Shown in pieces: positions 57,953 to 59,952 of a stretch of DNA of 64,000 bases. Positions within the stretch are counted from its first letter, which is position 1. Each line of letters begins with the position of its first letter. Origin of the DNA: Pseudanabaena sp. PCC 7367 (GTDB lineage: Bacteria; Cyanobacteriota; Cyanobacteriia; Pseudanabaenales; Pseudanabaenaceae); contig NC_019701.1 in the NCBI RefSeq assembly GCF_000317065.1, forward strand, positions 3,110,001 through 3,174,000, written 5' to 3'. The notes below the pieces were generated by a model. The model made no database searches and had not been told where the DNA came from. It saw only the letters and a program-made list of their open reading frames with translations. The position numbers were made by a program, and so were the translations under genes.

Positions 57953-58021
57953 GTATTTAGCACTAAAAACCTAAGTAAAAGCTATTTTTGATGAATCGTT
58001 AACATAAGCCAGGAGCTATAT

Positions 58022-58035
58022 GTATATTTAGATAC
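58022..58035. promoter_or_regulatory. NtcA-type site GTA-N8-TAC
   Basis: A perfect palindromic half-site pair, GTA at 58022 and TAC at 58033, separated by 8 bp. It lies about 150 bp before the riboswitch-like core. NtcA is the global nitrogen regulator of cyanobacteria. The motif alone occurs by chance, so only its position makes it interesting. Confidence 0.4.
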
Positions 58036-58112
58036 AGTCGCTATTTGCTTGAATTGCATCAATGTCATGCAAAAAAAATAAACAAAACTTTAAGATTACC
58101 CCTAAATGGCGA

Positions 58113-58145
58113 TTGACATCACTACCGATCATCTGTGAATATATG
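58113..58145 (+). promoter_or_regulatory. possible promoter of the riboswitch transcript
   Basis: Perfect -35 TTGACA at 58113-58118. The -10 is poor: GAATAT at 18 bp spacing or TATATG at 21 bp. Confidence 0.3.
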
Positions 58146-58170
58146 CAGTGGACAAAAGTTTAGGTCGTAA

Positions 58171-58270
58171 TCGTTCATCTTTGGCAGTCGGGTGTCGTTA
58201 TATTTGTAATATTCATCTCGTATTTCCAAGGACGGAAGTAAGGTTCATAGCCTGAAGGAACGCATTAAAG
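58171..58270 (+). promoter_or_regulatory. glutamine riboswitch (glnA / Downstream-peptide RNA class)
   Basis: Conserved blocks of this class appear in order: CGTTCATCT (58172-58180), GGACGGAAGTAAGG (58230-58243) and CCTGAAGGAACG (58251-58262). P1 is CGTTC/GAACG (58172-58176 with 58258-58262), P2 is CTTTGG/CCAAGG (58179-58184 with 58226-58231), and P3 is AGG/CCT (58241-58243 with 58251-58253). AAGGTT (58240-58245) is also fully complementary to AACCTT (58272-58277), which could be the pseudoknot or an alternative switching helix. Such aptamers bind L-glutamine and in cyanobacteria often precede short peptide genes. A short ORF begins 40 nt downstream. Confidence 0.8.
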
Positions 58271-58302
58271 TAACCTTCTAGTATGCGAGCCTAGTTAACG
58301 TT

Positions 58303-58401
58303 ATGTTTGAATACTTTGCAGTAGCGTGTTGTAAGTTTCTGTTTAAGTGCATTGGTTTCTTTCTGTTGGTTAGTTTTATTTCTACCAATATGTCTGGTTA
58401 A
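58303..58401 (+). CDS. 32-aa hydrophobic peptide downstream of the glutamine riboswitch
   Basis: ATG at 58303, TAA at 58399-58401. The peptide begins MFEYFAVACCKFLFKCIGF, is rich in Phe and has three Cys, and ends STNMSG, so it could be a single membrane-spanning or membrane-associated peptide. No good Shine-Dalgarno is visible, and an ATG at 58283 opens only three codons. Acceptance rests on its place behind the riboswitch, because Downstream-peptide RNAs precede ORFs of about this size. Unlike the gifB type, it carries no recognisable glutamine-synthetase-inhibitor sequence. Confidence 0.45.
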   Translation: MFEYFAVACCKFLFKCIGFFLLVSFISTNMSG

Positions 58402-59253
58402 CCCTTCACAAGGATTTGAATTTCTAGGATTTTGAGCGACCACAATAGACACGATCGAGATTTATATCTCTACTGTCCGAAAAGTTTGGTAGCTATCTAA
58501 TTAAGAAGGTTTTGAGTAATCTTCTAGTAGGGGATAATCATAAAAAATTTCCTGATTTTGATGGTAGCTATCAAACACATAAACGCAAGATTGTAATTAT
58601 TGCGATTAATTATTTAAGCAGATGCATCGATCGACATATTGGTCGATTTGAATGCAAGTTAATAAGCTTAAGCCCTCTGAATGCGAGCAATGTAAGCAAT
58701 GTAAGCTGTCACGCCACTACAGCTTTGCTTCCTACAAGGGTAACTTTTGCTTAGCTTTGGTTGAGGGTTGATCTACAGGATTTATGCTTCATCAGCTCCC
58801 TGCGCAATTCCCATTCAGCTAATTTCACTGGTGGGCGTTGCCCATTGGCGCAATGATTTAACGCTCAAGCGATCGGTCAAACTAATATCAGGTATGTGTT
58901 TGATATTTTGGCTTGATATTTTTGTTGATCGCATTTTCATCCCTGGAGCAGGCAATGCCGACTTTGAGCTAGAGATTACAAATAATTATCTGTGCCGCCA
59001 CCTCAGGCATTAGATTGATAACTCCAGCCTGTTGCATTTTCATGATCTTAGTGTATATTTCTGTTTTGCCTCTATTGCATCAGTTACATCAGTTGCATTG
59101 GTGATTCAGCTAATCCCGATTGCGATAGATGGAACAAAAACAAGGGCGATCGCGTCACTTGGTGTCGATCGCAATGGCTTTCATTTAGTTTTAATTTAAT
59201 GCAATGGGGAGCCGAACATAAAATCAGTGGTTTAGGTAGCCGAGGAGCTTGCT

Positions 59254-59952
59254 TTGACATTTTTTGACTTAACTAATAATTCTGAATTTAGATCCTTCTT
59301 CCCAGGGGAGCTATCTGGTTTTAACCAGGGAGTACGGGCATTTGAGGGGAATGATACCCTGGTGGGCTCGTCTGATTCGGAAACCTTCAATGGGAATGGC
59401 GGCAACGATATTATTTCTGGGAATTTTGGCTTCGACTTTATTCGGGGTGGCCGGGATAATGACACGATCGATGGTGAGGCCGATAATGACATCGTCAATG
59501 GCAATCGGGGTGATGACATTGTGCGCGGTGGCGAGAATGCCGACGTGGTACGCGGTGGCCGAGGTAATGATGATTTGTTTGGCGATCGCGGTAGAGATAC
59601 CTTGATTGGTGATGCGGGAATTGATGATTTATTCGGTGGGCAGGGCTCGGACACCTTTGTGTTGCGTACTGATAATGCTGCCTTTGGGATTGTTAATGCT
59701 GATGCGGTGCGGGACTTCAACGCGGCAGAAAACGATCGCCTCGGCCTCGATACCAGGATCACCGTAAACGATATTATCCTGGACGATCGGGTTGACTATT
59801 CTGGCATCTTTGGTGGCACGACTGAAAATGACACTGTGATTAGTATTGGCAGTTCTGGTTTGATTCTAGGCGTTTTTCTGGATACGCCACTGGGTGAGAT
59901 CGCACCTCGCACTGATATTCTGCCGGATTCACTTATCTATGGTACGGGCTGA
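59254..59952 (+). CDS. small RTX (haemolysin-type calcium-binding repeat) protein
   Basis: 232 aa. TTG start with GAGGAG 8 nt upstream; no in-frame ATG nearby. Residues about 30-135 are nonapeptide repeats of the GGxGxD type (GNGGNDIISG, GDRGRDTLIG, FGGQGSDTFV), each able to bind Ca2+ in a parallel beta-roll. The N-terminus has no signal, as for type I-secreted RTX proteins, and the C-terminus is a beta-rich likely secretion signal. No HlyB/HlyD/TolC-type genes are adjacent. Confidence 0.88.
   Translation: MTFFDLTNNSEFRSFFPGELSGFNQGVRAFEGNDTLVGSSDSETFNGNGGNDIISGNFGFDFIRGGRDNDTIDGEADNDIVNGNRGDDIVRGGENADVVRGGRGNDDLFGDRGRDTLIGDAGIDDLFGGQGSDTFVLRTDNAAFGIVNADAVRDFNAAENDRLGLDTRITVNDIILDDRVDYSGIFGGTTENDTVISIGSSGLILGVFLDTPLGEIAPRTDILPDSLIYGTG

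Follow-up and report, generated by a model that had tools for sequence, protein, structure and literature searches.

The window analyzed here is a 64-kb stretch of the Pseudanabaena genome (two contigs, 4.89 Mb; the window lies in contig C2). It contains the 1.3-kb spacer that an earlier note on this DNA had described; this spacer (57953-59253) runs from a response-regulator ORF to a 232-aa RTX-like ORF. That note had also placed in the spacer, at 58171-58270, a glutamine-class riboswitch built of three ordered blocks and three helices, and had seen no target for it. The riboswitch is confirmed below, and the features of the spacer to which we refer are the following:

57999-58035, plus strand: candidate distal promoter TTAACA-18-TATATT (57999-58028) overlapping an NtcA box, from a promoter scan
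58113-58118, plus strand: TTGACA, a candidate for a proximal -35 element; it lies 59 nt ahead of CGTTCA and has a weak -10
58170-58266, plus strand: type 1 glutamine riboswitch aptamer, recognized by its RF01739 score, its fold and its kept core letters
58256-58292, plus strand: candidate expression platform, in which AGG..CGCAU (58256-58258, 58261-58265) pairs with AUGCG..CCU (58283-58287, 58290-58292)
58303-58401, plus strand: 32-aa hydrophobic ORF MFEYFAVACCKFLFKCIGFFLLVSFISTNMSG, candidate target; downstream of the aptamer it is the first ORF with an ATG start and 20 or more aa

Further ORFs lie at 58512, 58768 and 59032. There is also a 33-aa ATG ORF (58062-58163, plus strand) that ends 6 nt before the aptamer, within the leader expected from the distal promoter.

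A cmscan search of the 64-kb window with Rfam 15 matches 58170-58266 (plus strand) to the type 1 glutamine riboswitch (RF01739, glnA leader) at 49.2 bits (E-value 9.1e-8; gathering cut-off 35 bits). This is the sole Rfam match in the window above the gathering score, and in a genome-wide covariance search the E-value is 1.7e-9. The three conserved blocks are at 58172-58180 (CGTTCATCT), 58230-58243 (GGACGGAAGTAAGG) and 58251-58262 (CCTGAAGGAACG), and the helices are P1 (58172-58176/58258-58262), P2 (58178-58184/58226-58232) and P3 (58241-58243/58251-58253). All three are present in the minimum free energy structure of the isolated 97-nt aptamer, which thus forms the expected three-way junction with CGUUCA, GACGGAAGUA and GAAGGAACGC that characterizes type 1. 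Every core letter (CGTTCA, GACGGAAGTA, GAAGGAACGC) with 95-100% invariance across 112 cyanobacterial aptamers is also present in the window copy. This invariance is partly built in by selection, since these aptamers were chosen by a pattern with most of the core letters. The isolated aptamer folds no better than shuffled sequence (z = -1.15), so the evidence lies in how well it scores against the covariance model and in its intact core, and not in single-sequence stability. No nitrogen-related gene is recognized downstream of the aptamer; because the Rfam model does not demand a nitrogen-gene leader, this lowers the functional claim and leaves the aptamer class as it is.

Which glutamine riboswitch is it? 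The earlier note had left the class as glnA/Downstream-peptide and proposed a covariance check with both models. Only the glnA half survives: RF01739 scores above threshold, while a permissive covariance search of 58000-58520 finds no match to RF01704 (Downstream-peptide, type 2) even at E-values up to 1, and nothing besides RF01739. Type 2 membership is therefore rejected. The same note had pointed to a complement, AAGGTT/AACCTT, as a possible pseudoknot or competing helix. Both hexamers are there (58240-58245, 58272-58277), but they are not the pseudoknot of the family, and their pairing would compete with P3 and break it. With about 100 x 100 position pairs and odds of 1 in 4096 for each (our own estimate), a stretch of such size should contain a 6-mer complement by chance, and this one is no more than that. 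Better positioned as a competitor is the helix of the candidate expression platform (58256-58292), which competes with P1. The element is a genuine, intact type 1 glutamine riboswitch aptamer, predicted to bind glutamine. Within its known class the riboswitch is an ordinary one; what is unusual is the target only.

The genome-wide covariance search reported the window copy alone. A looser search first showed a fragment of a second copy adjoining a DUF4278 gene, and cmscan of that locus gives a type 1 aptamer of 47.0 bits (L069:774-923, minus strand; G000:C2, about 3807373-3807522). Its long P2 arm, of about 100 nt, is the reason why the genome-wide search had not reported it. This copy follows closely on an NtcA box (GTAACTATAGATAC), has the canonical platform CGCGCCTC ... 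GGAGGCG (GCGCCTC/GAGGCG) and precedes a gene for a 58-aa DUF4278 protein. Two copies are in keeping with the few per genome that the earlier note had expected. These are the two places in the genome with the exact core pattern, and 37 other genomes from the family all lack it. Weak RF01739 matches in the family genomes (18-23 bits) were judged spurious: the one in G005 apparently falls within a coding sequence, and those in G003, G024 and G032 comprise only P1. The genome has two DUF4278 genes in all and two IF7-like genes, and a profile search of the genome places all of them outside the window spacer, so neither family is a hidden target there. The two IF7-like (glutamine synthetase inactivating factor) genes are in tandem (G000:C2 832952-833385, minus strand; L071). 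In the fetched stretches surrounding them and the second DUF4278 gene, no aptamer was seen.

We compared 113 distinct cyanobacterial aptamers (window copy counted) together with their downstream genes, and they show two classes. In class A, the junction after P1 is GAACGCGCC(TC), typically with GAGGCG before the start codon, and the targets are DUF4278 proteins (61), inactivating-factor-like proteins (10) and others. In class B, the junction is GAACGCA without CTC, and the aptamer mostly precedes a protein of about 72 aa (68-76 aa) with two hydrophobic segments (consensus MLVPSLxSLxxAxxAxxLSxNTxEEIVKVAA...LSLxFAPWxxKLxILAxP). This two-helix membrane protein family has no Pfam or NCBIfam coverage; one member touches DUF7657 at an E-value of 0.0055. 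The CGCA junction is found at 17 of the 21 two-helix-protein loci and at 0/61 DUF4278 loci. For an NtcA box nearby (GTAN8TAC, 15-40 nt upstream of CGTTCA) the counts are 1/21 and 49/61, respectively; P values for these contrasts ignore the relatedness of the loci. At the inactivating-factor loci the count of such boxes is 0/10. CGCA-junction loci before a two-helix protein include L024, L093, L137, L158, L166 and L323-L377, among others. Some strong relatives of the two-helix family (e.g., L401, L402 and L409-L416) have no aptamer core in the fetched flanking DNA, so not every family member carries the switch. In the literature surveyed, which did not extend to Klaehn et al. 2018 (NAR gky709), we found no description of class B as a separate regulon. 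Small hydrophobic proteins are recurring targets of type 1 switches in the relatives, and recognized targets start within about 100 nt of the aptamer. A second type of small target, of 42-53 aa, has one hydrophobic segment and a (L/F/T)CW(V/I)L motif (L005, L022, L028, L348, L363).

The junction of the window copy (GAACGCATTAAAG) has CGCA without CTC, the feature of class B. Membership in class A (CGC(C) junction, NtcA-linked) is rejected: the junction reads CGCATTAAAG, GAGGCG is absent, and the NtcA box is 150 nt away from CGTTCA, where 23-33 nt is usual in relatives. The other cyanobacterial CGCATT junctions found (L093, L158, L137 and L166; two Spirulina, Laspinema and Oscillatoria) all precede a two-helix protein. 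Searching every frame of 58100-59300, and the genome as a whole, with the profile of this family (...NTxEEIVKVAA...LSLxFAPW...) finds no member, which also excludes the family as a hidden target in the spacer. The window copy is thus class B by its RNA and an orphan by its target.

The statement in the earlier note that there is no target is right for recognized genes, but it passes over the 32-aa ORF, which starts 37 nt beyond the aptamer and is strongly hydrophobic (maximum 19-residue Kyte-Doolittle mean of 2.17). Among dinucleotide shuffles, 8% have an ATG ORF of at least this length in the first 60 nt, and in 1.3% such an ORF is transmembrane-like as well. A homologue search in 97 genomes gave nothing above chance (E-value at least 0.095), the ORF matches neither a protein family nor the two-helix profile, and a Shine-Dalgarno-like motif was not found ahead of it. 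Upstream of the aptamer, the TTGACA at 58113 falls within the range of 36-65 nt before CGTTCA where exact TTGACA is concentrated in relatives; a consensus promoter scan reported no promoter there. Further up, the perfect NtcA box GTATATTTAGATAC (58022-58035) is one of only three GTAN8TAC sites in the 64 kb, and the offset of 23 nt from -35 to NtcA box resembles that of class A promoters (mode 21-22 in relatives).

Our best reading, to which we give a probability of roughly 45%, is that the element is a functional type 1 switch in the leader of a short transcript, acting as a translational ON switch for a 32-aa membrane mini-protein. When L-glutamine is plentiful, it would bind the three-way junction and stabilize P1. 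Under glutamine scarcity, P1 would give up its 3' half, which together with the CGCAU junction would pair with AUGCG (58283-58287) just before the start codon. Glutamine would in this way release translation of the 32-aa hydrophobic peptide, as in other type 1 switches, and the usual two-helix gene of class B would have given way to an unrelated or unrecognizably diverged membrane mini-protein. Several observations speak for such a switch: the RF01739 match with its intact core, an alternative helix (58256-58292) that excludes P1, TTGACA at the spacing of the relatives with an NtcA-type promoter further up, and the CGCA junction class. In addition, small hydrophobic targets recur, a hydrophobic ORF of this kind is infrequent in shuffles, and the type 1 riboswitch of gifB in Synechocystis is switched on by glutamine (PMC6316151). 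A comparable pairing with the ribosome-landing region, by the junction alone or together with the P1 3' strand, is possible in many relatives. On the other side, the ON-switch reading is weakened by an ORF that lacks a homologue, a family or two-helix match and a Shine-Dalgarno-like motif, and by the alternative helix, which stops 10 nt before the ATG and at -9.4 kcal/mol does not exceed shuffles in stability (z = -0.66). Given this z-score, the expression platform is put forward as a proposal only. In the fold of 58146-58330, imposing P1 raises the energy by about 6 kcal/mol.

The close rival, which we hold to be only slightly less probable, is an orphaned riboswitch: the aptamer is intact, its original target (a two-helix or DUF4278 gene) has been deleted or has decayed, the ORF is there by chance, and the RNA is idle or a short noncoding transcript. 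The location of the DUF4278 and IF7-like genes elsewhere in the genome fits this account, as does the absence of the two-helix family from the genome and from every frame of the spacer. So do the missing Shine-Dalgarno motif and the 8% of shuffles in which an equally long ATG ORF appears, and the absence of the element from the 37 other genomes indicates that the family has not retained it. However, all core letters and the P1-P3 pairs are kept, which is unexpected after long neglect, and the hydrophobicity of the ORF is unusual.

A longer transcript is a further alternative, and an improbable one. The switch would then control expression as far as the RTX-like ORF at 59254, or act at the level of transcription, and the 32-aa ORF would be irrelevant. 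The RTX-like ORF, the next sizeable one, is on the same strand, and a scan of the stretch from the aptamer to 59254 finds nothing that resembles a terminator. Yet the same scan result rejects a terminator-based platform, leaving no transcriptional platform either, and the gene is about 1 kb from the aptamer as against about 100 nt for the recognized targets in relatives. We give very little credence to a chance resemblance to the motif. The single-sequence fold, no better than shuffles, speaks for it, but 49.2 bits and E-values of 9e-8 (window) and 1.7e-9 (genome) speak against it. Moreover, a search for the exact pattern ACGGAAGTA-N(6-36)-GAAGGAACG gives two sites in this genome, none in the 37 family genomes and none in a reversed control, and a known target gene follows the other copy.

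RNA sensing of glutamine controls nitrogen assimilation in cyanobacteria. If a glutamine switch does stand before an uncharacterized membrane mini-protein here, this and the family-wide pattern would indicate a second, membrane-located output of glutamine signaling. More tentatively, the cyanobacterial type 1 switches may form two separately wired regulons, one with CGC(C) junctions, often NtcA-linked, serving DUF4278 and glutamine synthetase-inactivating factors, the other with CGCA junctions, mostly NtcA-free, serving the two-helix proteins, for which Pfam and NCBIfam have no family. The window copy would then be a CGCA member whose protein shrank to, or was replaced by, a glutamine-induced 32-aa single-helix membrane peptide; we regard this whole picture as possible but doubtful. 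Glutamine riboswitch cores are also seen in more than 100 contigs (L083-L201) that are mostly from marine proteobacteria (SAR86, SAR116, SAR92, Pelagibacterales) and not from cyanobacteria, and these cores are mostly tandem pairs about 50 nt apart. A 2018 review describes glutamine riboswitches as restricted to cyanobacteria. The same core is present in at least 120 viral contigs (L202-L321), and for some marine phages such riboswitches have been described (PMC9004378).

Among known systems, the type 2 riboswitch (Downstream-peptide, RF01704) shares with the window element some core features and the short downstream ORFs; the window element lacks the covariance match. The second copy in this genome is of type 1 as well, but the canonical platform, the near NtcA box and the known target are found only there. 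With the gifB switch of Synechocystis, the window copy has in common the aptamer sequence, the three helices and the core, and in both the sequence before the start codon may pair with the junction and the P1 3' strand. It differs in having no DUF4278 or inactivating-factor gene, a junction of CGCATTAAAG and not CGCGCCTC, no GAGGCG Shine-Dalgarno, and an NtcA box at 150 nt as against 23-33. The two-helix gene of the CGCA-junction switches (L024, L093, L137, L158 and others) is missing downstream of the window copy and from its genome, but these switches share with the window copy the CGCA(TT) letters and, in most cases, the lack of an NtcA box near the aptamer.
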